Source of the DNA: Oscillospiraceae bacterium
GTDB lineage: Bacteria > Bacillota > Clostridia > Oscillospirales > Ruminococcaceae
DNA: 64,000 bases
Assembly (NCBI GenBank): GCA_028720105.1
Contig: JAQYLI010000040.1
Coordinates: 62,001 to 126,000, forward strand
Reading direction: 5' to 3'
Numbering within the stretch: the first letter of the stretch is position 1; every line of letters begins with the position of its first letter. The notes under the pieces are model-generated. The model was not told where the DNA came from, ran no database searches, and saw only the letters and a program-made list of their open reading frames with translations. Shown here one piece after another: positions 8,607 to 62,080 of this stretch. A program made the position numbers and the translations under genes.

Positions 8607-9395
8607 ATGATATCTGAACTTATGGCACTTATGGCGGCGGTAAATACGGAACTTTCAACATTTTTAAACAGAGATGCCCTAAGTTATAAAATATTTGACC
8701 ACAAGCCTTATTATATGACCTTTGAGGATAATTTTGAGGGGACGGAGCTTGACCTTTCCAAGTGGGAAAGATGTCCCGAACAGAGAAGGCAGGACCTTAA
8801 TAATTACTGGAAAGATGATATGTCCTATCTTGACGGTGAGGGGCATCTTGTTCTGGAAATGAGCTATGACGAGGAAACGGACAGATTTAACTCGGGGGCT
8901 GTCCGCACAAGAGGAATATTCGAGCAGACTTACGGTTATTTCGAGATAAGGTGTACTCTTAACAATGTTCCCGGGTACTGGACTGCTTTCTGGCTTATGG
9001 GCGACTCGGTAAACAGCGAGAAAAACGGCGGAAAAGACGGCACGGAAATTGATATTTACGAGTCTCCTTTTTACAATGAGAAAAAAATTCAGCATACTCT
9101 TAACTGGGACGGCTACGGTTCGGCACACAAGTCTGAGGGAAAGGTGGTAAATGCCAATGTTTATGACGGGGAATTTCACACCTTTGGGCTTCTCTGGACT
9201 GAGGACGAATATGTTTATTATATTGACGGCAGGGAGACCTGGAGGACTGACGCCCAAAAAGCAAAGGGAACCTGCGAGGTTCCCTTATTCCTAAAAATTT
9301 CTGCGGAAACGGGAGGCTGGACGGGTCTGCCCGACAAGGATATGCTTCCCGACAGGATATATGCGGATTATGTGAGGGTCTACTCGGCAAGATGA
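8607..9395 (+). CDS. Glycoside hydrolase family 16 protein
   Basis: Catalytic motif EIDIYE, YGYFEIRC, AFWLMG; no signal peptide visible. Confidence 0.88.
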   Translation: MISELMALMAAVNTELSTFLNRDALSYKIFDHKPYYMTFEDNFEGTELDLSKWERCPEQRRQDLNNYWKDDMSYLDGEGHLVLEMSYDEETDRFNSGAVRTRGIFEQTYGYFEIRCTLNNVPGYWTAFWLMGDSVNSEKNGGKDGTEIDIYESPFYNEKKIQHTLNWDGYGSAHKSEGKVVNANVYDGEFHTFGLLWTEDEYVYYIDGRETWRTDAQKAKGTCEVPLFLKISAETGGWTGLPDKDMLPDRIYADYVRVYSAR

Positions 9396-11655: not shown

Positions 11656-13854
11656 GTGAAAATGCCTTTGATCAAAAAAATAAAAGACGAGCTTTTAAAG
11701 GACGAGTTTGATGTACAGCATAAGCTTCTGAACATTCTGCTTGCGGTGAGCTTTGCTGTGGGCGGTATATCGGTCCTTATATCATTTATTTTAAATCACG
11801 GATTTGTAGGAAATATTGCCGTTCTGCTCATTGTGCTTTATACGGGAATAAATTTGTGGATATCCGTAAAAAAAGGAAATAAACGTCTTGCTGCCATACT
11901 TATCACTACCATAGGCGACCTTGTTCTTCTTCCTGTTTTTTTTATTACAAACGGAGGAACAAAGGACGGTATACAGCTATGGTATCTGTTTGGTCTTCTG
12001 ACGCCTCTCATTGCTCTCAGAGGTGTACCCTCGGTGATAATGTTTATTCTAAGCCTCCTTTCATGTGTGGGGTGTATGTTATTTGAAAAAATCTGTCCCG
12101 ATGCCATTATGCATTCGGAGAATGAACTCGCCCGATTTATTGTAATGTTCATATCCTTTGTGTTCTTTGCCATAATAATCGGCATTATGTTCAGGTATCA
12201 GGCTGATGTTTATGAAAGTCAGAGAGAGATAATGCTCCGCAAGGACGATGAGCTTGTCAAGGCTATGGAGGAGGCTCAGAGCGCAAATACCGCAAAGAGC
12301 AGATTTCTTGCCCATATGTCCCACGAAATAAGAACGCCTATAAACGCTGTTCTCGGAATGGACGAGATGATAATCAGAGAAAGCACCGACAAGGACATCA
12401 CCGCTTATGCCACAAATATCCGCAGCGCAGGAAATTCCCTGCTCACCATTATAAACGATATTCTGGATTTTTCAAAGATCGAGTCCAATAAAATGGAGAT
12501 CATTCCTGCCGAGTACGACCTTTCCCTGCTTCTCAAAGACTGCTACAATCTGGTTTTTATGAGGGCGGCAGACAAGGAACTGCGATTTACCTTTGAGACT
12601 GATGAAAATACTCCGAAAAATCTCATTGGTGACGAATTCCGCATAAGGCAGATAATCACAAATCTTCTTACCAATGCGGTGAAATATACTCTCAAAGGTT
12701 CTGTATCTCTGTCACTTTCTTTTGACAGGATAGATAATGACAGGATAATGCTGATAATTTCCGTTAAGGATACGGGTATGGGCATAAGCGACGATGACAA
12801 GGCAAAGCTTTTCGACTCTTTCAGAAGAATAAATGCATCTCAGACGAGAAATATCGAAGGAACGGGTCTGGGGCTTGCCATTACCAAGAAACTTGCGGAG
12901 CTTATGGACGGAACTGTTCTGGTTGAAAGCGAGTACGGCAAGGGAAGTGTTTTCACCGTCCGTATTCCTCAAAAGGTTGCGGACAGCGTAGTTATAGGCG
13001 TGTTTGATCCCCGTAAGACCGATGGTCCCGACAAGAAATACCGTGAAAGCTTCCACGCTCCCGAAGCAAGGATACTCGTGGTGGACGATGTAAAGATGAA
13101 CGTTGAGGTTATGAGGGGGCTTATCAAAAAGACCCTTATCCACTCTGACGCAGCCTGCAGCGGAGAGGAATGTCTCGCTCTTGCGGCTAAGGAAAAATAC
13201 GATATCATTTTTATGGACCATCTTATGCCCGAAATGGACGGCGTTGAGACCCTTAAACATCTCAAAGAAGATAATAACAACCCCAACAGGGACACCCCCG
13301 TTATCGCACTTACTGCCAATGTTATTGCAGGCGCCAAGGAAAGCTATATGTCTATGGGCTTTGCGGATTATCTTTCCAAGCCTGTGAAGGGCAGCGACCT
13401 GGAGGATATGCTTATTAAGTTCCTGCCTGCCGAAAAGGTGATGATCTATTCGGAAAGCGACAGTGAAAAATATCAGAGTGAAAATACAGACATTCCGGGA
13501 TTTTTAAATGCAAAGGCAGGCATTTCCTTCTGCTGCGGAGATGTTTCCTTCTACAAGGAAGTGCTCAGAGGCTTTGTTCACAGCGGTATTACCGAAAGGC
13601 TGGGCAAATATTATTCCGCAAGAGACTGGGAAAATTACAGCGTTTGTATACACAGCATTATGGGTACTGCTCTCAGTATCGGCGCGGAGGAGCTTGCTTC
13701 AAAGACTTTCGCTATGAAAAATGCTCTAAAAAACGACAATATTTCCTATGTAAAGGAACATCACAAGAGCTACTATGACAGCTGTAAAAAGCTCATTGAC
13801 CGGATATCCGAGTACCTGGACGAAGAGGAGGGAGCGGTAAGCAATGCTTTATAA
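11656..13854 (+). CDS. Membrane hybrid histidine kinase (TM sensor-HisKA-HATPase-REC-HPt)
   Basis: MSHEIRTPINAVLGMDE, GTGLGLAITKKLAELMDG, REC MDHLMPEMDG, HPt CIHSIMGTA. Confidence 0.93.
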   Translation: MKMPLIKKIKDELLKDEFDVQHKLLNILLAVSFAVGGISVLISFILNHGFVGNIAVLLIVLYTGINLWISVKKGNKRLAAILITTIGDLVLLPVFFITNGGTKDGIQLWYLFGLLTPLIALRGVPSVIMFILSLLSCVGCMLFEKICPDAIMHSENELARFIVMFISFVFFAIIIGIMFRYQADVYESQREIMLRKDDELVKAMEEAQSANTAKSRFLAHMSHEIRTPINAVLGMDEMIIRESTDKDITAYATNIRSAGNSLLTIINDILDFSKIESNKMEIIPAEYDLSLLLKDCYNLVFMRAADKELRFTFETDENTPKNLIGDEFRIRQIITNLLTNAVKYTLKGSVSLSLSFDRIDNDRIMLIISVKDTGMGISDDDKAKLFDSFRRINASQTRNIEGTGLGLAITKKLAELMDGTVLVESEYGKGSVFTVRIPQKVADSVVIGVFDPRKTDGPDKKYRESFHAPEARILVVDDVKMNVEVMRGLIKKTLIHSDAACSGEECLALAAKEKYDIIFMDHLMPEMDGVETLKHLKEDNNNPNRDTPVIALTANVIAGAKESYMSMGFADYLSKPVKGSDLEDMLIKFLPAEKVMIYSESDSEKYQSENTDIPGFLNAKAGISFCCGDVSFYKEVLRGFVHSGITERLGKYYSARDWENYSVCIHSIMGTALSIGAEELASKTFAMKNALKNDNISYVKEHHKSYYDSCKKLIDRISEYLDEEEGAVSNAL

Positions 13855-16564
13855 TATTTATTTTGAAGCGGCGGCTGTCTGCTTCCTGCTTATCCTTAAT
13901 ATTTATATCCGCCTTCAATACAACAGAACTTCAAAGCAGAACATTCTGTTTCAGAAGCTGGCGGTCTATCTGCTTATTGCGGTATCTCTTGATGTTCTGA
14001 CCGCCATCACCATAAGCTATGCGGCTCATATCCCCGTATGGGTGAACACCATTCTCAATCACGCATATAACGTTTCTGTGCTTGTCCTTGAATATCACTT
14101 CCTCTTATATTGTATAGAGGGTGTGTGCAGAAGAGAGAAAAAAGGAAAATTCTTTCAGGCGTGCCGATGGCTCAACATCATAGCAAACATTATCCTTGTT
14201 ATCAACCTGTTCACAGGCTGTGTGTTCAAATTTACTCCCGAGGGAGAGTATATTCACGGTCCTTTGTATTATATGACTTATTTAGTGTCATTGGTATTTA
14301 TATTTGCTGCTACAGGTACTCTGCTCAGCGAGGCACAGCGGTTTTCGAAAAATCAGAGGGTAACTATTATTCTGTACTGTGTTACCAGCCTTATGGGTCC
14401 TATGATACAGCTATTTTTCCCGAACCTGCTTTTATGTCTGTTTACAGTGTCTCTGGGCTTTATGATGCTGATGTTCTCAATGGAAACTCCCGATTATCAG
14501 CAGCTTACAAAGACTATGAATGAGCTTGCAAATACAAGAGACGAGGCGGAGGAGGCTATGGGTCTGGCTCAGGCGGCTAATCAGGCGAAAAGCGACTTTC
14601 TCTCCGCGATGTCCCACGAGCTGAGAACGCCTATCAACTCCATTCTCGGCTTTAACGAGATGATAATGCAGCAGACAAGTGACACAGAAATAAAAAAATG
14701 CACCGACAACGTTCAGACAGCGGGAATGAACCTGCTCTCCATTATCAACAATATTCTGGACTACACCGAGATAGAGGGCGGAAGGCTCAAAATTACAAAT
14801 GTTCCCTATTCCACCCGTTCTATGCTGAGAGATGTGCTTGCCTATGCGGAATACGGCACAGACAAGAGCCAGCTTGAGCTGAGAACGAATATTGATGAAA
14901 ATATCCCCTCAGAGCTTTCGGGCGATATTACAAGAGTTATACAGGTCTTTGACAATGTGATATCCAATGCGGTGAAATATACCTACAGAGGCTATGTAGA
15001 GATAGTCGTAAATTGGACGCCCGACAATGACGGCAGTGCGGGTGTGCTTTCCGCAAGGATAACCGACAGCGGCGTGGGCATCAAGAAGGAAGATCTTGCC
15101 CGTTTGTCGGAGAGCTTTACCCGTCTGGATATAAAGAAAAATCAAAATATCCAGGGCGTGGGTCTGGGTCTTTCCATTGTTACAAAGCTTTTGTACCTTA
15201 TGGGAGGAAAAATATCCATTGACAGCGAATATGAAAAGGGAACTATGGTTTCCTTTGAGCTTCGTCAGCAGGTGGTAAGCAGTATTCCCGCAGGAAAAAT
15301 ATCCCCTCTCGGTTCGGGTGACATAAGCACAGATGACGGCTACAAATTCTATATTCCCGATGCAAAAATCCTCACCGTTGACGACAACGGAATGAACAGA
15401 GAGCTTTTCAAGGGGCTTCTGAGAGACTCGGGAGCGGATATCGACGCCGTAAGCGGCGGAAGAGAAGCTGTTTCATTGCTTGAGAAAAAAAGCTTTGATA
15501 TTATTTTCCTCGACCATATGATGCCCGAGATGGACGGTATAGAGACTCTTCGTGTAATAAAGGACAGAAATCTCAGCGATGCGCCTGTTATTGTGCTTAC
15601 CGCAAATACCGTTGCAGGCGCAAGGGAAATGTATCTTTCCGAGGGCTTCGACGATTATCTTGCAAAGCCTGTTACGGGAAGAATGTTATACGGCGTACTG
15701 AAAAAATATCTTCCCCAAGAGATGATAAAGGAGCTGCCAGTAAATATTCCTGCTCCCGCTGATGAGAAAAACGCTCCAAGGCGGAAACGTACGGTTATGG
15801 AGCGGCTGGGAGAATTTCTCGATACGGCAACGGGTCTTACCTACTGCTGCGAGGACGAGGAATTTTACGTATCAATGCTTCAGACCTATCTTGAAAATTC
15901 CCGTCTTGAGGATATGAAGAATTTCTTTGAGGAAAGAGATTTCGACAACTACCGTATCACCGTTCATTCAATAAAGAGCACCTCGCTCACCATCGGAGCT
16001 GCAGAGCTTTCGGCAGAGGCAAAGAGCCTTGAAATGGCGCAGAAATCGGGAGAAATCGGCTATATTGAGGAAAATCATCAAAGGGTTTACGAGCAGTACG
16101 GCGAAATGCTTGAAAAAATAAAGGCTGTTCTTGACGATCCCGACGATATTCTGGGCGGTATGGAAGAGGAAGAAGAAAGAATATCAAAAATTCTGATAGT
16201 TGATGACGACCCCTCCTGCCTTGCCATTGCAAAACGTACTCTTGAGACGAGATTTGAAGTCATAACTTCTCTTTCGGGAGAAGAGGCTCTGGGAATAATT
16301 GAAAAAACCGTTCCCGACCTTGCGGTGCTGGATATTTATATGCCCGAGATGGACGGCTTTGAACTGATGAAGCGGATAAGGGAGAAAAGCGGTATTCCCG
16401 TGGTGTTCCTTACTGCGGACTCGGACAAAGCCCTTGAGGAAAGGAGCTTCAGGGAGGGCGCTATGGACTTTATAACCAAGCCCGTAACAAGCACTATCCT
16501 TATCAACAGACTGAGCAGAGTTATTGAGCTTGACGATCTGAAAAAGAGAGTTTCCTGCGGATAA
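13844..16564 (+). CDS. Membrane hybrid histidine kinase (TM sensor-HisKA-HATPase-REC-HPt-REC)
   Basis: MSHELRTPINSILGF, GVGLGLSIVTK, REC LDHMMPEMDG, HPt VHSIKSTSL, second REC VLDIYMPEMDGFELMK. Confidence 0.93.
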   Translation: MLYNIYFEAAAVCFLLILNIYIRLQYNRTSKQNILFQKLAVYLLIAVSLDVLTAITISYAAHIPVWVNTILNHAYNVSVLVLEYHFLLYCIEGVCRREKKGKFFQACRWLNIIANIILVINLFTGCVFKFTPEGEYIHGPLYYMTYLVSLVFIFAATGTLLSEAQRFSKNQRVTIILYCVTSLMGPMIQLFFPNLLLCLFTVSLGFMMLMFSMETPDYQQLTKTMNELANTRDEAEEAMGLAQAANQAKSDFLSAMSHELRTPINSILGFNEMIMQQTSDTEIKKCTDNVQTAGMNLLSIINNILDYTEIEGGRLKITNVPYSTRSMLRDVLAYAEYGTDKSQLELRTNIDENIPSELSGDITRVIQVFDNVISNAVKYTYRGYVEIVVNWTPDNDGSAGVLSARITDSGVGIKKEDLARLSESFTRLDIKKNQNIQGVGLGLSIVTKLLYLMGGKISIDSEYEKGTMVSFELRQQVVSSIPAGKISPLGSGDISTDDGYKFYIPDAKILTVDDNGMNRELFKGLLRDSGADIDAVSGGREAVSLLEKKSFDIIFLDHMMPEMDGIETLRVIKDRNLSDAPVIVLTANTVAGAREMYLSEGFDDYLAKPVTGRMLYGVLKKYLPQEMIKELPVNIPAPADEKNAPRRKRTVMERLGEFLDTATGLTYCCEDEEFYVSMLQTYLENSRLEDMKNFFEERDFDNYRITVHSIKSTSLTIGAAELSAEAKSLEMAQKSGEIGYIEENHQRVYEQYGEMLEKIKAVLDDPDDILGGMEEEEERISKILIVDDDPSCLAIAKRTLETRFEVITSLSGEEALGIIEKTVPDLAVLDIYMPEMDGFELMKRIREKSGIPVVFLTADSDKALEERSFREGAMDFITKPVTSTILINRLSRVIELDDLKKRVSCG

Positions 16565-23161: not shown

Positions 23162-23400
23162 TTACAAAACGTATATTATTTTATTATATATACTATCTGT
23201 AACTATATTTATACAATCCGTAAAATTACAAATCAGTTACACATAAAGTTGAATTGGTTACAATGTAGTAACAACGTACAAATCAAAGGTTACAAAATCG
23301 TTACAATGCCTATTGAAAATGATATTATTTTGTAATATAATAAAATAAATAGAAGTCTTATGACGATAAAACGTATAATAAAGAAATAAAAAAGGAGACG

Positions 23401-24294
23401 ATGAGAATGAAAAAAACAAAACTTCTTACCGCAGGCATAGTGGCGTTATCGGCTGTTTCGGCAGTGAGCGCAGGGGCATATGCAGCAGACGTGGTGGATT
23501 TTGAAGACGGCAAATATTCCTTTGTAAGTATGAAGACCGACGATGGCGGAGACCCTTCCAACCTTTCCGTAGTTGATTTCGGCGGCTCAAAGCAGCTCAA
23601 GGTCGATGTTACCGACTGCGCAAACGTGCCCAAAGTATATTTTGACCTTAATTCAATGCTGAATGCCGATGATTTTGAGAAGGTAAAGGTCATTGAGATG
23701 GACGTTACCTTCGAGTCCAAGGACGGAGTTACGGCTCCCGGCTGGGCGGGCGGCGCAATAGGCACACAGGGTGGCGAAGCAAAGACTCCTGCCTGGGCAC
23801 AGACCGCCTGGGAATGTGGCGAATATGACAAGGCAGTTTCCGACCCTATTACCATTCAGAGAAAATTCCTTCTCTATTCCGAAAGATTGGTAAACGGCAC
23901 CGAGGGCACTCATATGATACTTATGAGATGGGGCTCCGAGGTGGATTACAATATGTATGTGGACAATATAAAGTTCCTGGACGCCGACGGAAAGGCGATC
24001 CCGCTTGAGCTGAAGGCTTCCGCAGCACCTGTTCAGACAACAGCAGCTCCCGAAGAAACAGCTGAGCCTGAGCCTGAGGATATCCCCGAGGAAACAGAAG
24101 CTCCTGCCGAGACTGAGGCAGTTCCCGAGGAGACCGAAGCTCCCGAGACTGTTTCCGAACCCGAAGAGACCAATCCCGAGAGTGATAACGAGACGACATC
24201 TTCCACTACAGGCAACCTTTCGGCATTTGCGGCAGCCAGCGCAGTGGTTCTTTCGGGCTATGCTGTTGCAATGACGCGCAGAAAGAGAAAGTAA
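23401..24294 (+). CDS. Secreted CBM-like protein with TGN sorting-like C-terminus
   Basis: Signal peptide; Trp-rich beta-domain; E/A/P/T-rich linker; SSTTGN + hydrophobic segment + RRKRK. Confidence 0.8.
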   Translation: MRMKKTKLLTAGIVALSAVSAVSAGAYAADVVDFEDGKYSFVSMKTDDGGDPSNLSVVDFGGSKQLKVDVTDCANVPKVYFDLNSMLNADDFEKVKVIEMDVTFESKDGVTAPGWAGGAIGTQGGEAKTPAWAQTAWECGEYDKAVSDPITIQRKFLLYSERLVNGTEGTHMILMRWGSEVDYNMYVDNIKFLDADGKAIPLELKASAAPVQTTAAPEETAEPEPEDIPEETEAPAETEAVPEETEAPETVSEPEETNPESDNETTSSTTGNLSAFAAASAVVLSGYAVAMTRRKRK

Positions 24295-24355
24295 ATTTGT
24301 GCAGGTTTGTAAAATATCAACAAAGCTTGCATATCATAATTGTTTAAAAAACAAA

Positions 24356-24384
24356 TTGCAACTTTTGCGAGTAAATGCTATAAT
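24356..24384 (+). promoter_or_regulatory. Sigma-A-like promoter (TTGCAA-N17-TATAAT)
   Basis: Exact 17 bp spacing upstream of the 24456 gene. Confidence 0.7.
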
Positions 24385-24455
24385 ATACCTATAATTTGCG
24401 TAACTATATTCAAGAGACAATATAAACGCGATTAAAATATGGAGGAGAAATAATT

Positions 24456-25253
24456 ATGAAAAAGCATCTTTCAAGCCTTGCTGCAATCACAGCAGCCGCA
24501 GCTCTTTGCACAACAGTATCCGCTACAGCTTCTGCAGCTGACTGGTCCCAGACCGGCTATGCAGATGGCGATCCCGCTACTGTAAACATCATTTCCACAT
24601 CTGCTGACGGCGTTGTATTCACACAGACAACCGACGGCGTAGCAGCAAAGGCTCGTATTACACTCGATCAGATCCTCGCAGATCCCGCAGACGTTTCCAA
24701 GGTTTATTCCGGTTCCTGGACAATTGTATATCACGGCCTTGCAGGCTCTGATATCCAGGGCGTAGGCGGCGGCTGCTATGCAGCTACCTGCAACTCTACT
24801 ACATACTGGATCAGCCCTGAGTTCAACGAGGACGGCACAGTAACTTGGGAAGACGAGGTTACAGTTGAGGATTCCTTCAAGTGGCTCCTTCCTTCTCAGG
24901 TTCCCACAGACGCTTCCCAGGCTGAGTTCGTATTTATGGACTGGGCAAACGCAAACCTCGTTTCCAACAATGTAACTATCGAGATCAAGGACTTCAAGAT
25001 CTTCGATAAGGACGGCAACGAGATCGCTCAGAAGGAATACAGCGCATCCGGCGCAGCAGCTGAAGAGGCTCCTGCTGAAGAAGCTCCCGCAGAGGAAGCA
25101 CCTGCAGCTGAAGAGGCTACCGCTGAGACAGAGGCAGCTCCCGCAGCTGACACAACTACTCCCGTTGCAGCAACAGGCAACACCGCAGCAGCTTCTATTG
25201 CAGCAGTAATGGCAGTAGCAGGCGCAGCAGCTCTTATTTCTAAGAGAAAGTAA
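24456..25253 (+). CDS. Secreted protein with TGN sorting-like C-terminus
   Basis: Signal peptide; EEAPAEEAPAEE linker; PVAATGN + TM + SKRK. Confidence 0.8.
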   Translation: MKKHLSSLAAITAAAALCTTVSATASAADWSQTGYADGDPATVNIISTSADGVVFTQTTDGVAAKARITLDQILADPADVSKVYSGSWTIVYHGLAGSDIQGVGGGCYAATCNSTTYWISPEFNEDGTVTWEDEVTVEDSFKWLLPSQVPTDASQAEFVFMDWANANLVSNNVTIEIKDFKIFDKDGNEIAQKEYSASGAAAEEAPAEEAPAEEAPAAEEATAETEAAPAADTTTPVAATGNTAAASIAAVMAVAGAAALISKRK

Positions 25254-25277
25254 TCTAAGATCAAAGTTAATATTTAT

Positions 25278-25333
25278 GCAGAGAATACTTTATTGGGTGA
25301 TCTCTGCATAATTCTGTTTATTTACAGAATTAT
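25278..25333 (+). repeat. Two directly abutting stem-loops between paralogous surface genes
   Basis: GCAGAGA..TCTCTGC (25278-25307) and ATAATTCTGT-ttattt-ACAGAATTAT (25308-25333). Confidence 0.75.
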
Positions 25334-25350
25334 GAAAGGAAGTTTTCACA

Positions 25351-26589
25351 ATGAATTTCAAGAAAATTGTAGCAACATTTGCAGCTGCAGCTCTTTCCGT
25401 TTCAGCTCTTTCCGTTTCGGCAATGGCTCTTTCCACAAAGGACTATCTCAAGGACGGCGTTGTATACATTAACGCTGATAAGCCCGAAGATCCTACCTGG
25501 GCAATCGACGCAGGCGTGGCTCAGACAGATGTTTACGGCGTTACATTCCACGTAACATTCGAGGGCAATGATGAATGGTACGGCGGCGGAATTGGTGCGA
25601 ACTCCAACTCCACAGGCTGGAAGTCCATTGAGTGGGGAACTAACTCCAAGGAGATCACCGCTGACGTTGAGAACAACACTATCACTTGGCTTTCCGATGC
25701 TCCCGTATTTGCAGAGACTGATGAGTATGCTCAGCTTTGGCTCCAGACCTGGACCGGTAAGGTCACAGTTAACAGTGCAGACGTTCTCGGCAAGGACGGC
25801 GTGATCCTTTCTACAGATGACGCTCCTGCAGAGACAGAGGCGCCTGCAGAGACTGAAACAGAGGCTCCCGCTGAGGAGGCTGAGGCTGAAACAGAAGCAC
25901 CCGCAGAGGAGACAGAAGCTGAAACAGAGGCTCCTGCAGAGGAGACCGAGGCTGCTCCCGTTGAGGAGACTGCAGCAGTTGATTACTCCGCTCTCACAGG
26001 CGAAGTTATCACCGATACAGAAGCAACATCTGCAGGCGCTTGGGGACAGGCTATCACCCTCACAACAGTAAAGAACGAAAACGGCGTGTTCGACCCTGCT
26101 GTTCTTACTCCCGACAAGGCTGTAGTAGTTTACTACGAGGCTGAAACAGCTCCCGAGGTTGTTCTCCAGTCATGGAGCGGCGGCGAAGGCTGGGCAAAGG
26201 TTCCCGCAAACGAGGAATTCTCCACCGACGGCGTTGCAGTATTCACATACGATTATATGACCGCTATGTACCAGAGCGAGGATTTCGTTTCTACTCTTGA
26301 TGCATTCATCGTAGGCGACACAGGTTCCGAGCTTACAGTATCCAAGGTTCTTCTCGTTGACGCAGCTTCCCTCACAGCAGGCGCTGAGTCCGATGAGGAG
26401 GTTATCGAGGACGCTGCTCCCGCTGATGTAGAGGTTGTAGAAGAGGCTCCCGCCGAGGAAGCTGTAACTGAGGCTCCCGTAGCTGATACAACAACTCCCG
26501 TTGCTTCCACAGGCAATACCGCAGCAGCTTCCATCGCAGCAGTAATGGCACTTGCAGGCGCAGCTGCTCTCATTTCCAAGAGAAAGTAA
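25351..26589 (+). CDS. Secreted two-domain CBM-like protein with TGN sorting-like C-terminus
   Basis: Signal peptide; WYGGGIGANSNSTGWKSIEWG domain, ETEAPAEE linker, second WSGGEGW domain; PVASTGN + TM + SKRK. Confidence 0.82.
   Translation: MNFKKIVATFAAAALSVSALSVSAMALSTKDYLKDGVVYINADKPEDPTWAIDAGVAQTDVYGVTFHVTFEGNDEWYGGGIGANSNSTGWKSIEWGTNSKEITADVENNTITWLSDAPVFAETDEYAQLWLQTWTGKVTVNSADVLGKDGVILSTDDAPAETEAPAETETEAPAEEAEAETEAPAEETEAETEAPAEETEAAPVEETAAVDYSALTGEVITDTEATSAGAWGQAITLTTVKNENGVFDPAVLTPDKAVVVYYEAETAPEVVLQSWSGGEGWAKVPANEEFSTDGVAVFTYDYMTAMYQSEDFVSTLDAFIVGDTGSELTVSKVLLVDAASLTAGAESDEEVIEDAAPADVEVVEEAPAEEAVTEAPVADTTTPVASTGNTAAASIAAVMALAGAAALISKRK
25819..25975 (+). repeat. Coding repeat encoding ETEAPAEE-type linker
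   Basis: Imperfect tandem repeats of gagacagaggctcctgcagag. Confidence 0.8.
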
Positions 26590-26609
26590 TTTTCTAAAAA
26601 TGCAAAATC

Positions 26610-26642
26610 AAAGCCGTTTTCTTCGGAAAGCGGCTTTTTTGT
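26610..26642 (+). terminator. Rho-independent terminator
   Basis: AAAGCCG ... CGGCTTTTTTG. Confidence 0.8.
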
Positions 26643-26776
26643 TTTATGTGTTTAAATGTGCCAAGAATGACGAATGATTATTTGTGCATTATTTACATTG
26701 AAATAAGCAAACAATAATGATATAATAATACTGCAAATAAAATTTGACGTAAATAACGTCAAGGAGGAGAATTAAA

Positions 26777-27589
26777 ATGAAATTAAAGAAAATTTTAGCA
26801 GGCTTTGTAGCTGCTGCAATGGCAGTTACAACAATGGCTGTAAGCGCATTCGCTTCTACAGTAACACTTGACAGCGAGTATGTTGGTTCCTGGGGTGCAG
26901 GTCTCTGCATTCCTAAGACTGAGCTTGAGGCTATCGGCAGTGATGTAAAGGTTACTCTCGACATCGAGACCCGCAACCTTGCAAATACTGCAGACCAGTT
27001 CCTTCTCGCTCCTATGGACTACGACAACAGCTGGACAAGAGTTACAGATCAGCTCACAAGTGACACAATGGTTGCTAAGCCTGATGGCTTTGTAGTCGTT
27101 AAGGAAGGTCAGACATCTGTTGAGTTCGTAATCACAGCTGATACAATTGCTTCTCTCGGTGACAGCGGACTTGGTTTCCAGGTTCAGAACGTTATCGTTA
27201 AGTCTGCAAACCTCGAGGCAGGTTCTCCTGAGGGCGCATACACCATCATCGAAGAGGCTGACGTAAAGGACTACTGTTTCACACCCGCTGAGGATACAGC
27301 TGCTGCTGAGGAAACAGAGGCTCCCGCTGAGGAATCTGCAGAAGAGACCGAGGCTGAGGCTGTAGAGGAAACAGCTGAAGAGGTTGAGGAGACTGAGGCT
27401 GTTGAAGAGACAGTTGAAGAGACCGAAGCTGCTCCTGCTGAGACCGAGGCTGCTCCTGCTGAGACCGAGGCTGCTCCCGCTGCTGATACAACAACAGCTC
27501 CCGCTGCTACAGGCAACACCGCTGCTGCTGCAATCGCAGTTGTAATGGTTGCTGCAGGCGCTGCTGCTCTCGTTTCCAAGAGAAAGTAA
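26777..27589 (+). CDS. Secreted protein with TGN sorting-like C-terminus
   Basis: Signal peptide; acidic ETEAAPAE repeats; APAATGN + TM + SKRK. Confidence 0.8.
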   Translation: MKLKKILAGFVAAAMAVTTMAVSAFASTVTLDSEYVGSWGAGLCIPKTELEAIGSDVKVTLDIETRNLANTADQFLLAPMDYDNSWTRVTDQLTSDTMVAKPDGFVVVKEGQTSVEFVITADTIASLGDSGLGFQVQNVIVKSANLEAGSPEGAYTIIEEADVKDYCFTPAEDTAAAEETEAPAEESAEETEAEAVEETAEEVEETEAVEETVEETEAAPAETEAAPAETEAAPAADTTTAPAATGNTAAAAIAVVMVAAGAAALVSKRK

Positions 27590-27608
27590 TCAGTACATAA
27601 AGCAAGTT

Positions 27609-27644
27609 CAGAGACGTTGTGCAATGCACAGCGTCTCTTTTTTT
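27609..27644 (+). terminator. Rho-independent terminator
   Basis: AGAGACG..CGTCTCTTTTTTT. Confidence 0.85.
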
Positions 27645-27715
27645 ACGAATAGGTAGATTTTTTTGTAAAAGTATGGTATAATAAAGAAAACTCCCGGGAA
27701 AGGAAGGTCACCAAA

Positions 27716-27937
27716 TTGGAAAACAGGCTTGAAGCCTTTGAGGAAATGCTTTCGGCGGTGATACGGAAATACACCGATACATCCGAAAAGCTTGACGCTT
27801 TAAAAGCGCAGGGCAAAAACAAGACTGCCGCATTTCGCGAGCTTCTGGGAGACAAGCTGACCTGCCGCTATATGCTTTCGCTTTATGAGCAGTATGGTCT
27901 GATAGAAAAAAACTCATTTAAGGAGAGGTCGGAATGA
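27716..27937 (+). CDS. Small hypothetical protein (73 aa, TTG start)
   Basis: RBS-like ggaaaggaagg; stop overlaps next ATG (ATGA). Confidence 0.6.
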   Translation: MENRLEAFEEMLSAVIRKYTDTSEKLDALKAQGKNKTAAFRELLGDKLTCRYMLSLYEQYGLIEKNSFKERSE

Positions 27938-28077
27938 ACTATATTTATCCCCTGATGTCACAGATACCTGCCACAGGAAATGTGGAGCAGAAAACCTATA
28001 TTATCGTCCTTGTCATAGCGGCGGTTCTGATTTTGGGAGCAATTATCGCAGGGATATTCACCAAGAAAAAAAAATAA
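27934..28077 (+). CDS. 47 aa mini-protein: short N-terminus + IPATGN + TM + KKKK
   Basis: Own translation: MNYIYPLMSQIPATGNVEQKTYIIVLVIAAVLILGAIIAGIFTKKKK; ggagagg RBS; 4 nt overlap with upstream ORF; absent from supplied ORF track. Confidence 0.75.
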   Translation: MNYIYPLMSQIPATGNVEQKTYIIVLVIAAVLILGAIIAGIFTKKKK

Positions 28078-28166: not shown

Positions 28167-29432
28167 ATGGGACTTATCACAGCAGCAGTATCATCAATTT
28201 CAGGTTCTCTTGCGGACTCGTGGAAGGAAGTTATCGAGCCTGACGATATGACCGACAGCACTCTGCTTGTAAAGGGAGTAGCAATAAAACAAGGCTCCAA
28301 CAAGCGTGGAACGGAAAATGTTGTTTCCAACGGCTCCGTGATACACGTTTTCCCCAACACCCTTATGCTCCTTATTGACGGCGGCAAGATCGTTGACTAC
28401 AGCGCTCAGGAGGGCTATTATATTGTAAATAACTCCTCCTCCCCCTCTCTCTTCAACGGCGAGCTGAGCGAGACTCTGAAGGACACCTGGGAGCGCTTCA
28501 AATTTGGCGGCGCACCCTCTCAGAGACAGTATGTTTACTACATAAACACTGCCGAGATCAAGGGCATAAAGTTCGGCACACGCCAGCCCGTAAACTATTT
28601 CGACAATTTCTATAATGCAGAGCTGTTCCTCAGAGCCCACGGCTCCTACTCCATAAAGATCACCGACCCCATCAAGTTCTTTACCGAGTTTGCACCCAAG
28701 GGCACTGACAGGATCGAGATAAAGGACCTCTCCGAGCAGCTTTTCAACGAGTTTATGGACGCTCTCCAGTCCGCCATCAACCAGATGTCCGTTGACGGCG
28801 TAAGAATATCCGCAATAACATCAAAATCCAGAGAGCTTTCCAAGTATATGGCAAATACCCTTGATGCCGACTGGACAGAGCTTCGCGGAATAGAGGTCTG
28901 CTCCGTAGGAATAGCAAGCCTTTCCTACGACGACGAGAGCAAGGCTCTTATCAATATGAGAAACAAGGGCGCAATGATGTCCGACCCCACTATCAGAGAG
29001 GGCTTTGTACAGTCCTCCGTGGCACAGGGACTCCAGAGCGCAGGCTCCAACACATCAGGCGCAGGAAATGCATTTATGGCAATGAATATGGGTATGGGCG
29101 GAGCAGGCGGATTTATGAACGCCGCTTCTCAGGCAAATGCCGCTCAGATGCAGATGCAGGCACAGCAAGCACAAGTACAGCAGGCTCAGCAGGCAGCTGC
29201 AAACACCTGGAAATGCTCCTGCGGCGCAGAGAATACAGGCAATTTCTGTAATAACTGCGGCTCAAAGAAGCCTGCTCCCGCCGGCGAATGGACCTGTTCC
29301 TGCGGAACAAAGAATACAGGAAAATTCTGCGGAAACTGCGGAGCAAAAAATCCCAACGAGGAATGGACCTGCTCCTGCGGTGCAGTGAACAAGGGCAATT
29401 TCTGCAATAACTGCGGTTCCAAGAGACCATAA
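28167..29432 (+). CDS. SPFH-domain (YdjI/virion-core-like) protein with three C-terminal zinc ribbons
   Basis: SPFH-type N-terminus; three copies of W.CSCG..N.G.FC.NCG.K.P. Confidence 0.85.
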   Translation: MGLITAAVSSISGSLADSWKEVIEPDDMTDSTLLVKGVAIKQGSNKRGTENVVSNGSVIHVFPNTLMLLIDGGKIVDYSAQEGYYIVNNSSSPSLFNGELSETLKDTWERFKFGGAPSQRQYVYYINTAEIKGIKFGTRQPVNYFDNFYNAELFLRAHGSYSIKITDPIKFFTEFAPKGTDRIEIKDLSEQLFNEFMDALQSAINQMSVDGVRISAITSKSRELSKYMANTLDADWTELRGIEVCSVGIASLSYDDESKALINMRNKGAMMSDPTIREGFVQSSVAQGLQSAGSNTSGAGNAFMAMNMGMGGAGGFMNAASQANAAQMQMQAQQAQVQQAQQAAANTWKCSCGAENTGNFCNNCGSKKPAPAGEWTCSCGTKNTGKFCGNCGAKNPNEEWTCSCGAVNKGNFCNNCGSKRP

Positions 29433-56888: not shown

Positions 56889-58628
56889 TTACTTGAGAAC
56901 AACGAGGTAAGGACCGCCTGCGGTTACAGAGAATGTGCAGGAGCCGTCGGACTGAACCTTAGCCTTGGAAATGCCCTTGAGGGAGCTGGAGTTGGGATCG
57001 TAGCGGTAAACAACAGCTGTGCAGCCTTCGCGCTTGCTTGAGAACTTAACAGTAACGCTTGCCTTGGAGCCGAAGCTGTCGTAGTTGTTGGAGATACCGA
57101 TCTCAGCCTTTGCAACAGCGTCCTTTGCAGCCTTGCTTACGAGCTTGTCAGGAATGAAGTCGATGTTGTACTCGGTGTAAACGATCATATCCTGAGCCTT
57201 ATCAATGTCCTTGCCGTTTATAGTCCACTTAACTCCGCTGTCAAGAACGAATGTTACATTTACATTCTTGCCGTCGAGAGCTGTAAGAACGTCCTTGGCA
57301 ATGATATTTGCGCCGTTCATATCTACCTTGATGGTATCGCCCTTAGAAGCAGCGTTGATGTACTTGATGATAGTGCTCCAGCCTGCCTTGGTCTTTTTAC
57401 CGTAGATGTAAGGCTCGCCGTCCTCAGCTTCCTTGGCGGTGGTAGTGGTCTTGTTGCTGAGGCTGTTGCGGAGAGTGTAGTAAGGATCGATATAGCCGTA
57501 GGGGCTGTAATATCCGTAATATCCGTAGTAGTTGGTGTAAGCGTTGCCGTAGTAGTTATAGGGAACATAGGTGATATCTGTTCCGAGAGCGGTTCCGCCT
57601 GCAGCCTTTGCAGCCTCGAGAGTGCCGTAATATGTGCCGTTGTAGTAGTAATAGTAGCCTACTCTTTCGGTGTTGCCGTAGGGAGTGTAGTAAATATCAA
57701 CGCCAACTGTTCCGCCTGCGTCCTTAGCAGCCTGGAGAGAGGGATATGCAACGCCGTTGTAGTAGTACTTGTAAATGGAGCCAACAGCAGCGGAATCGGT
57801 ATTATAGAGATATCCTACAGCGGTAACATATGAAGCATTGCCGCCCGAAGCATTTACAGCAGCAGAATAGGTGCTGTAGTATCTGCCTGTGTAGGAGCTG
57901 TAGTAATAGCCGTTCTTGTAGTAATTGTTATAGTAATCTCCGACATAGGAAACATATGCGGAGTTGCCGTTGGAAGCGCTTAAAGCGTCAGAGTAAGAGT
58001 TGTAGTACTTACCTGTGTAGGAACTGTAGTACTTGCCATAGCCGTAATAATTATACCAGTAATCGCCGCCCATATAGGTTACATAGTTAGAATTACCTCT
58101 GGAAGCGTTAAGAGCCTCCTGGTAAGTGCTGTAGTAAAGACCTGTGTAGGAGCTGTAGTAACGGTTAGCGATTGCGGAAGAGCCAACGTATGTAACATAC
58201 TTTGCCCGACCGCCTGCTGCGGAAAGAGCATCGGCATAGGTCACATAATACTTGCCGTTAAGAGAGCAGTAATAGCCTGTGCCTGTTGTTGAATAGTTGG
58301 TATTGATGTAGTAAGAGCCAACGTAGATCTCAACGGGATTTGCAACGCCGTCAGACTTAGCTGCGTCTACGGAATCGTAATATTTCTTGTTAACAGAGTC
58401 ATAATACTTGAGGTCTGCGCTTGCAGGGATCTTACCGTAGGGAACAGACTCGTAAGCTCCCAGATTATTTCCTGCAGCAGCTGCTGCGTCCATAGGGCTG
58501 GAGTAGTAAATTCCATTATAATAGTAATAATAATCCTGAACTGCGGAAACGCTGAATGCCATTGCCTGAGTTGCCATCAGGAGAGCTGCGGCAGCGGCGG
58601 CTATAGACTTGGTCAGTTTCTTGCTCAT
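56889..58628 (-). CDS. Secreted Tyr-rich tandem repeat protein
   Basis: Signal peptide; about eight imperfect repeats YYSSYTGKYYNSYSDALSASNGNSAYVSYVG; separate C-terminal domain. Confidence 0.85.
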   Translation of the reverse strand: MSKKLTKSIAAAAAALLMATQAMAFSVSAVQDYYYYYNGIYYSSPMDAAAAAGNNLGAYESVPYGKIPASADLKYYDSVNKKYYDSVDAAKSDGVANPVEIYVGSYYINTNYSTTGTGYYCSLNGKYYVTYADALSAAGGRAKYVTYVGSSAIANRYYSSYTGLYYSTYQEALNASRGNSNYVTYMGGDYWYNYYGYGKYYSSYTGKYYNSYSDALSASNGNSAYVSYVGDYYNNYYKNGYYYSSYTGRYYSTYSAAVNASGGNASYVTAVGYLYNTDSAAVGSIYKYYYNGVAYPSLQAAKDAGGTVGVDIYYTPYGNTERVGYYYYYNGTYYGTLEAAKAAGGTALGTDITYVPYNYYGNAYTNYYGYYGYYSPYGYIDPYYTLRNSLSNKTTTTAKEAEDGEPYIYGKKTKAGWSTIIKYINAASKGDTIKVDMNGANIIAKDVLTALDGKNVNVTFVLDSGVKWTINGKDIDKAQDMIVYTEYNIDFIPDKLVSKAAKDAVAKAEIGISNNYDSFGSKASVTVKFSSKREGCTAVVYRYDPNSSSLKGISKAKVQSDGSCTFSVTAGGPYLVVLK

Positions 58629-59932: not shown

Positions 59933-62080
59933 TTACAGCTTTGCCTCTATCTCTTTAAGCTTCTTCCGAGCCTCTTCCGTTACCGCCCTGTAATTTTCCA
60001 GAAGCAGGTCGATATCCGCGGAAATGGCGTCCATATTTCCCTCCTTGGCGGCAAACTCGTGGGAACGCGCTTCCTCGGAAAGAGAAACTGCGCCGATATT
60101 AAGAGAGGTGCTTTTTAAGGAGTGAGCGGCTATGCGGTAATTATTCATATCCTTTTGCTCATAGAAATCACGAAGCTTCTGTATGCGGTCCGCAAATTCC
60201 TCGCAGTAGGTCTGGAGGATTATCATATAAAGCTCCTCGCTGTCTCCGCAGTAGGTCATCGCCACGCTTTGGTCAATAAGCTCTGCGGCATTGTTATGGA
60301 CTGTTTCCTTTGCGTCTGCCGTTTCCTCGGGGGCGGCTTCATCGGTGATATGTACAAGCTCCGGGGGCAGCAGCTTTAAGAGCATTTTTTCAAGGCTGTT
60401 TCCCGAAATGGGCTTCGGAAGATAGTCCTCAAAGCCGTATTCAACATACATATCCCTTGCGCCGGAAACGGCGTTTGCTGTAAGGGCGACCACGGGAATA
60501 CCCGGGGCAAGATTTTCCTTTCGTATCTTTTTCAGAGTTTCCACGCCGTCCATTTCGGGCATCATATGGTCGAGGAGCAGTACATCGTATTTACTTGCTC
60601 TGAGACGGTTTATACATTCAAAACCGCTTGAAGCGCAGTCAACCTGTATTTTCGTGGGCTTTAAAAGTCCCTCCGCCACAAGAAGGTTTGACCTGTTGTC
60701 GTCGGTAATGAGAATACGGGCTTCGGGGGCTGTGAAGCTTACGCGGTATTTTCTGCGGTCGGGAGCGCTTTCGGTGCGGGTGCAGAATTCGCCCGAAGGC
60801 TCTGCGCTGATTATCTTCTGAGGCAGCTTTATTATAAATTCCGAGCCTTCGCCGTAAACGCTTTCTACCTCAATAGTGCCGTTCATCATAGTCACAAGGC
60901 GGGAGGTGATGGAAAGCCCCAGACCCGTTCCCTCGATATTTCTGTTTTTTTCCTGATCCACACGGGTAAAGCCGCAGAAAAGCTTTTCCCTGTCCTCTTC
61001 CTTAATGCCCCTGCCCGTGTCCTTTACCGAGAGAATGAGCAGAATGCTGTCCTCCGACTGCTTCTCAAAGCCTGCGGTAAGGGTGACTGAGCCTGAATCA
61101 GTGTATTTTACGGCATTTGTCATAATGTTTGTGAGTATCTGCCTGATACGCACCTCGTCTCCGAAAAGACAGCTTGGTATCTCGGGGTCGGCGTTTATTT
61201 TAAGCTCAAGCCCCTTTTCCTCAAAGCGGCGGTTAAGCATATTAACGGTATCGTTTACCACGGAGGTTATCTGATATCTTACGGGAATTATCTCCATCTT
61301 GCCCGACTCTATCTTTGAAAAATCAAGGATATCATTGATAAGGGACAAAAGTAGCTTTCCCGAGGTTTCAACGTTGCAGGCATAGCTTATAATGCTGTCG
61401 TCGTTTGCTTCGCGGAGGATAAGCTCATTCATACCCAGAACGGAGTTTAAGGGAGTTCGTATCTCGTGGGACATATTTGAAAGGAAATCCGATTTGCTCT
61501 TAGTTGCGGCTCTTGCCTCGTCGCACTTGTCCTCGACAATTTTCAGAAGGTCGTCAAGACTGCGCTCCTGCTCTCTGTTTCGGCGGTCGCGAAGCTCAAC
61601 GAATTTGATAACATTCCGACACATCCACTGAATGCCCATTACCGTTATGGCGCAGGCGATGTATTGAAGGGGGGGGGCCGCTCTTTGAAGTCCAATAACG
61701 GAGGGAATGCCAAAAACTATAAAAATGCCTGTCATCAGAATGCTTTGGAACCGCATAAAGCCCGAGTCCATATACATAAGCATTATTGCGCACTGCAAAG
61801 CCATAGTGCAGAAGAATATGGTGGTGCTTTCGAAAATGCACCCCAGCAATACGGCGATAAGCATAAAGGAAACGGTCTGTAATATCTGATAGGACAGCTT
61901 TTTTATCCTTTTCTGGAGAAAAACCAGCGTAAGAAATACCCCCAGCAGGAAAAAACCGCTTGCTGTGCGTAGGGGGAAGGAAGCCGACTTCATTATCGAC
62001 GCCGAGATAATAACTATTATTGCTCCCACAAAGAAGAAAAACAAGCCGTTGTTGCTTCCACGGTTAAAATCCTCATTCAT
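59933..62080 (-). CDS. Membrane hybrid histidine kinase (TM sensor-HisKA-HATPase-REC-HPt)
   Basis: MSHEIRTPLNSVLGMNEL, GTGLGLSITSR, REC LDHMMPEMDG, HPt AAHSLKSTSLNIG. Confidence 0.93.
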   Translation of the reverse strand: MNEDFNRGSNNGLFFFFVGAIIVIISASIMKSASFPLRTASGFFLLGVFLTLVFLQKRIKKLSYQILQTVSFMLIAVLLGCIFESTTIFFCTMALQCAIMLMYMDSGFMRFQSILMTGIFIVFGIPSVIGLQRAAPPLQYIACAITVMGIQWMCRNVIKFVELRDRRNREQERSLDDLLKIVEDKCDEARAATKSKSDFLSNMSHEIRTPLNSVLGMNELILREANDDSIISYACNVETSGKLLLSLINDILDFSKIESGKMEIIPVRYQITSVVNDTVNMLNRRFEEKGLELKINADPEIPSCLFGDEVRIRQILTNIMTNAVKYTDSGSVTLTAGFEKQSEDSILLILSVKDTGRGIKEEDREKLFCGFTRVDQEKNRNIEGTGLGLSITSRLVTMMNGTIEVESVYGEGSEFIIKLPQKIISAEPSGEFCTRTESAPDRRKYRVSFTAPEARILITDDNRSNLLVAEGLLKPTKIQVDCASSGFECINRLRASKYDVLLLDHMMPEMDGVETLKKIRKENLAPGIPVVALTANAVSGARDMYVEYGFEDYLPKPISGNSLEKMLLKLLPPELVHITDEAAPEETADAKETVHNNAAELIDQSVAMTYCGDSEELYMIILQTYCEEFADRIQKLRDFYEQKDMNNYRIAAHSLKSTSLNIGAVSLSEEARSHEFAAKEGNMDAISADIDLLLENYRAVTEEARKKLKEIEAKL

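Follow-up and report, generated by a model that had tools for sequence, protein, structure and literature searches.

Four consecutive proteins with a TGN tail

The window, a stretch of 64,000 nucleotides from an Oscillospiraceae bacterium (assembly GCA_028720105.1, contig JAQYLI010000040.1, positions 62,001 to 126,000), carries four consecutive open reading frames on the + strand. Their products, here called P1 to P4, end in a tail that resembles a sortase sorting signal and contains the residues Thr-Gly-Asn (TGN). P1 (23401..24294, 297 amino acids) has a signal peptide, a beta-sandwich head, an acidic linker and an SSTTGN tail. P2 (24456..25253, 265 amino acids) has a signal peptide, a head distantly homologous to that of P1, an acidic linker and a PVAATGN tail. 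P3 (25351..26589, 412 amino acids) is the longest and consists of a signal peptide, a Trp-rich N-terminal head, an acidic linker, a CBM65 domain, a second acidic linker and a PVASTGN tail. P4 (26777..27589, 270 amino acids) carries a small beta head between signal peptide and acidic linker and ends with an APAATGN tail.

All four translations begin with Lys or Arg followed by a hydrophobic stretch, which by eye is signal-peptide-like, and finish with an acidic EAPAEE/ETEAP linker of Glu, Ala, Pro and Thr, the TGN residues, about 20 hydrophobic residues and (R)KRK. P1 to P4 thus have the general anatomy of a sortase substrate, i.e. a signal peptide and a C-terminal motif with a hydrophobic helix and a basic tail. 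This confirmed the original prediction, made from the DNA alone, of four successive signal-peptide proteins with this layout. The cluster had been placed at 23401-28077; the four reading frames were found as placed, while the last one ends at 27589 and positions 27590-28077 are non-coding.

On the + strand, the tails of P1 (helix followed by RRKRK), P2, P3 and P4 (helix followed by KRK) occupy 24193..24294, 25158..25253, 26494..26589 and 27494..27589, respectively. A DNA pattern of the TGN codons plus a downstream GC dinucleotide had exactly four matches in the window, one in each gene (at 24208, 25173, 26509 and 27509). The expectation for the same window was 0.91 matches, and four were reached in none of 100 shuffles.

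In P3, residues 223-333 matched the Pfam family CBM65_1, a carbohydrate-binding module (CBM), with an E-value of 6.9e-24 and 84.6 bits against a cut-off of 25. Compared with the solved CBM65 of Cel5A the profile match was weak (E 0.007). For the P1 family the head was modelled by AlphaFold2 (AF2) with a predicted local distance difference test score (pLDDT) of 87.7. The best PDB match of the model was the CBM28 structure 1uww (E 1.6e-6, template modelling (TM) score 0.63); further fold matches were to CBM22, CBM16 and others, gingipain adhesin domains among them. The P2 head is a distant relative of the P1 head according to an hhalign comparison of the family profiles (probability 96%). Profile searches of PDB sequences yielded nothing useful for the heads of P1 and P2 and the N-terminal head of P3, and chance-level matches only for the head of P4. 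When compared by profile, neither the N-terminal head of P3 nor the P4 head showed homology to CBM65. Taken together the heads look glycan-binding-like, as had been proposed, on the basis of the CBM65 in P3 and the predicted CBM28/22/16-like fold in P1. The Trp-rich motifs had been assigned to the N-terminal domains; this was correct for the motif beginning WYGGGIGANSN, found in the N-terminal domain of P3, but not for WSGGEGW, which belongs to the second domain of P3, the CBM65.

Pfam recognised no other domain in P1 to P4, specifically no cohesin, dockerin, pilin or isopeptide (FctA-like) domain. Because neither cohesin nor dockerin was among the matches, an identity as scaffoldins was rejected, and the scaffold system suggested originally was not borne out.

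The two closest syntenic relatives of the window, loci L029 and L030, which were fetched by means of P3, share flanking genes of 95-97% identity and tails of 92-100% identity with it. The heads behaved differently. The P3 head was 96% identical to that of L029 and 26% to that of L030, while the P4 head was 97% identical to that of L030 and 52% to that of L029; moreover, P3 of L030 has a P1-type head ahead of the same CBM65. In these alignments the anchors stay constant, and the heads appear to be modules that can be exchanged. Glycan-binding-like heads exchanged in this way would provide a model of how these bacteria change their adhesion targets.

Another view is that the heads bind host proteins or mucus instead of polysaccharides, with a CBM-like fold reused as an adhesin. 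Heads that swap between close relatives would be in line with adhesins under selection, beta-sandwiches also occur in adhesin domains such as the gingipain ones matched by P1, and the P4 head has no close match. On the other hand, the CBM65 of P3 belongs to a curated carbohydrate-binding family and the top fold matches of P1 are CBMs. Thus we consider binding to host proteins or mucus doubtful.

Conservation of the TGN tail in the lineage

A first tail profile was built from the tails of P1 to P4, so that the matches of these four in their own genome are by construction; E-values were 7.5e-29 to 5e-25 for P2 to P4 and 2.6e-20 to 7e-14 for P1, depending on the profile. This profile detected five further TGN proteins in the own genome, as verified by reading their C-termini. 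With a broader tail profile the number of TGN proteins was ten in all, P1 to P4 and six more, so the genome-wide search proposed at the outset did find additional members. One of these has 100 amino acids and is scarcely more than a linker with an anchor. The Pfam anchor profile PF00746 (Gram_pos_anchor) matched neither P1 to P4 nor any other protein of the own genome, and in the TGN genomes its only match was a marginal one, in genome G028. Because PF00746 fails on TGN proteins, routine annotation of this uncultured gut lineage probably overlooks its surface proteins.

Tail statistics were calculated from 71 distinct tails of TGN genomes. T, G and N were unchanged in 71 of 71 tails, in a sample that is biased towards TGN because the loci were collected with the TGN-tail profile. 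The four positions before TGN had an entropy of 1.8-2.6 bits and that just after it was about 2 bits. The codons for T, G and N varied synonymously among the tails of the lineage. The first basic residue followed TGN at a distance of 20 residues in 54 tails and of 19 in the remaining 17. Leu was never present at its LPXTG position (0/71), while the Pro position was occupied by Pro in 29 and by Ala in 28 of the 71 tails. The original prediction of an invariant TGN combined with a lost or altered Leu-Pro holds for P1 to P4, and TGN is constant throughout the sample; about 40% of the lineage tails, on the other hand, keep Pro.

Two tail types were distinguished. Type I tails mostly read (N/S)PxTGN, have a helix containing AVIP and carry Pro in 13 of 14 cases; type II tails, among them those of P1 to P4, have Pro in 16 of 57. 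Most type I tails conform to the substrate motif of class B sortases (NPXTG/NPQTN, (S/P)PXTG), while the P1 to P4 motifs SSTTG, VAATG, VASTG and PAATG do not. A lone type I tail in genome G116 suggests that type I may be older than type II.

Type I proteins come in two sizes, an acidic mini-protein of 100-130 amino acids and a protein of 500-650 amino acids, the latter without a Pfam match. Within one genome the mini and the large protein carry the same triplet before TGN (SPK/SPK, NPT/NPT, NPA/NPA, SPA/SPA). The pair was seen in L024 (2441-2743, - strand), L076, L077, L078, L088, L094, L095 and other loci.

The constancy of the tail could also result from the copying of one cassette among paralogs, in which case the Asn, and likewise the loss of Pro, would be uninformative on enzyme specificity. 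The tails of P3 and P4 are indeed 70-77% identical to that of P2, and a sampling that leans to TGN, the loci having been found with a profile built on it, fits as well. Yet the C-terminal region of P1 is just 32% identical to that of P2, the lineage has two tail types with different helices, and TGN is found across six genera with synonymous codon variation at all three residues. These data render a copied cassette unlikely.

Class B sortases and the sorting of TGN proteins

The usual sortase locus in the genus of the organism is a row of four sortases with genes for a SpoIID-domain protein and a pyrimidine phosphorylase downstream of it; the phosphorylase was named from its sequence and not via a profile. 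The SpoIID-like protein was located downstream of the four-sortase row in all loci read (L011-L016 and L019; Pfam was checked in one). The active-site motif LSTC (STC) was present in all clustered sortase domains. The four row sortases of genome G011 matched TIGR03064, i.e. class B, with E-values of 1.8e-49 to 2e-37, one of them above and three below the curated cut-off. Among solved structures, SrtB of Bacillus anthracis (2oqw, E 1.9e-28) came closest to the first row sortase. The TGN proteins had been thought to have a sortase class of their own. A new class was rejected because of the TIGR03064 matches of the row sortases, although the set of four paralogs is peculiar to the lineage.

The distribution of tails and sortases was analysed in a family sample of 120 genomes from 119 genera. 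With a rich TGN repertoire defined as a best E-value <1e-11 and at least six matches, seven genomes qualified: the own genome (G000), G011, G028, G047, G118, G137 and G144. The four-sortase row was present in every one of them except the own genome; in G137 it was split over two contigs. Four or more sortases, on separate contigs or apart, were also found in G048, G055 and G135, which have no TGN repertoire. In a tree of 71 sortase domains the row members formed four ortholog clades, each with 100/100 support and each restricted to TGN genomes, from six genera. A three-sortase row was seen in G116 and in G120. That of G116, which has a single NPKTGN protein, was placed beside the four row clades; that of G120 goes along with tails resembling SPDTGV and NVDTGI. 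In an order sample of 297 genomes the tail profile at E <= 1e-6 had matches in three genomes only: the own one, G120 and a further one.

A separate pilus-like locus of the genus (L017, 3562-9420; L018, 3887-9042) combines a gene for signal peptidase I with those for a class B sortase and for a protein that has an FctA/DUF7601 domain and a VPTGI tail.

We favor the view, with a probability of roughly 0.75, that P1 to P4 are cell-wall-anchored surface proteins with glycan-binding heads, sorted via xxxTGN by class B sortases from a four-sortase row elsewhere in the genome. The proteins would be exported by means of the signal peptide and retained by the C-terminal helix and the basic tail. A class B sortase probably cuts x-x-x-T|GN between T and G and joins the protein to peptidoglycan, and the acidic linker would hold the head outward from the wall. 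The targets of the heads, with their CBM65 and CBM28/22/16-like folds, would be plant-type beta-glycans. The enzymes in question would be the four class B paralogs of the row, inherited together and missing from the incomplete own assembly. In this respect the sequence data support the original idea of sortase-type surface proteins in which TGN is the invariant part. The TGN signal is probably a lineage-specific, relaxed variant of class B sorting, tied to the conserved four-sortase row.

Several points weigh against this interpretation. A Pfam search of the own assembly, which is 86% complete, found no sortase, and in the genomes that have one the sortase locus is not adjacent to its presumed substrates. 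The TGN trait has a narrow distribution and is common to its carriers by descent, so that the genera cannot count as independent tests; the co-occurrence of tail and row rests on about six genera with shared ancestry, not on independent events. With respect to the heads, sequence searches gave no solved relatives for P2 and for the N-terminal domain of P3, and the P4 head, modelled by AF2 with a pLDDT of 91.5, has a weak fold match only, to the mixed-linkage glucan-binding surface protein SGBP-B (E 5e-3, TM 0.53). To our knowledge there is no biochemical proof of a class B sortase accepting signals that lack Leu/Asn as well as Pro. Finally, the substrate residue four positions before the cut matters to SrtB of Clostridioides difficile (PMC5118464).

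The absence of a sortase from the genome had been named beforehand as evidence against sorting, and in formal terms it is what the own assembly (2.31 Mb, 51 contigs) shows. The best reading is an assembly gap, because the assembly is 86% complete, the pyrimidine phosphorylase of the sortase locus was not found in it either (with a query joined from two relatives and no positive control), 19 of the 20 genomes of the genus that were searched, all but the own one, have sortases, and both L029 and L030 have four each. A species-specific loss of the locus is less favored. A sortase-free organism was rejected as the likely reading, since the phosphorylase is missing as well and relatives have the whole locus.

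If the tail were a plain C-terminal membrane anchor, no sortase would cut it and P1 to P4 would stay membrane-held. This would agree with the own assembly having no sortase and with the missing canonical Leu-Pro in P1 to P4. However, a plain anchor requires neither a TGN that is constant in 71 of 71 otherwise variable tails nor a fixed spacing of 19-20 residues, and TGN is accompanied by the four-sortase row in other TGN genomes, which makes simple membrane retention very unlikely. Least probable of all is a polymerisation of the TGN proteins by the sortase row into a pilus-like fibre instead of single attachment to the wall: four sortases in a row do resemble multi-sortase assembly loci, and the mini and large type I proteins share a signal triplet in each genome, but P1 to P4 have no pilin or isopeptide domain in Pfam, and the genus has a separate pilus-like locus, to which a class B sortase, a signal peptidase and an FctA-domain protein with VPTGI tails belong.

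For sorting at TGN by class B enzymes, C. difficile offers a close comparison. Its SrtB, a class B sortase, cuts between T and G of (S/P)PXTG (PMC4155245); thus a class B enzyme that works without Leu is already known. Common to both systems are the sortase class, surface-protein motifs that lack Leu and a preserved Thr-Gly. In contrast to one sortase and Pro in most substrates in C. difficile, four paralogs in a row are found here, and most type II tails have lost Pro. Furthermore, the C. difficile tails presented in PMC4155245 continue with TGD, whereas the tails of this lineage have an invariant Asn after Gly. For SrtB of B. anthracis residues beyond the pentapeptide also matter (PMC11987632), so that by analogy a role of this Asn in sorting is plausible, albeit unproven.

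The layout of the LPXTG anchor (PF00746), i.e. motif, hydrophobic helix and basic tail, is common to the TGN proteins, but Leu is never at its position. The class B sortases of Staphylococcus aureus and B. anthracis, with the motifs NPQTN and NPXTG, belong to the same class (TIGR03064), and the type I tails keep (N/S)PxTGN. Their substrates serve heme uptake, whereas the families described here are glycan-binding-like and type II tails depart from NPxTG.

In Ruminococcus bromii, like the present organism a gut ruminococcus, polysaccharide (starch)-binding surface proteins, Sca2 and Sca5, are displayed by sortase signals (PMC9112005, PMC5814915). Sca2 and Sca5 are cohesin-bearing scaffoldins of the amylosome, while in P1 to P4 only a CBM65 is recognised by Pfam. 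CBM65 occurs in endoglucanases of Ruminococcus albus (PMC4954948). There and in Cel5A of Eubacterium cellulosolvens it is appended to the endoglucanase, whereas in P3 it is part of an enzyme-free, presumably anchored protein. A TGN-type signal was not described in the open-access literature searched, on sortases in combination with Ruminococcaceae/Ruminococcus and class B, which is no proof of its absence.

As a tentative extension, class B specificity might have moved away from Asn/Leu-Pro, in the N-terminal part of the motif, towards the Thr-Gly-Asn at and just after the cut, with the four paralogs sharing out, or acting in turn on, type I tails, which contain Pro, and type II tails, which mostly lack it. 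If so, Leu/Asn and Pro, which are thought to set sortase specificity, would be dispensable while an Asn after the cut is fixed, and four conserved class B enzymes would be dedicated to this sorting code.

Further features of the window

Promoter-like sites on the + strand were found by a consensus scan 5' of P1 (TTGAAA-17-TATAAT, 23313..23341, 11/12; a pattern match and no proof), 5' of P2 (TTGCAA-17-TATAAT with extended TG, 24356..24384, 10/12) and 5' of P4 (TTGAAA-17-TATAAT with extended TG, 26698..26726, 11/12). Terminator-like hairpins with a T run lie on the same strand 3' of P3 (26610..26637, 12-pair stem) and 3' of P4 (27610..27638, 13-pair stem). Because of the placement of these elements, which are consensus matches only, P2 and P3 may form one transcription unit and P4 another.

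Directly downstream of the TGN cluster, at 28167-29432 (+), starts a gene for an SPFH/Band 7 protein with zinc-ribbon-like repeats. The same neighbour is present in L029, L030, L033 and L034. Elsewhere in the window, a glycoside hydrolase family 16 protein (E 2.5e-19) is encoded at 8607-9395 (+); its start has no obvious signal peptide. A secreted-looking protein of 579 amino acids with many Tyr-rich YYxSYTGxYYxS repeats, encoded at 56889-58628 (-), had neither a Pfam match nor a C-terminal anchor. Three large proteins, two of them adjacent, are encoded at 11656-16564 (+) and 59933-62080 (-) and resemble hybrid histidine kinases (Pfam on the first only).

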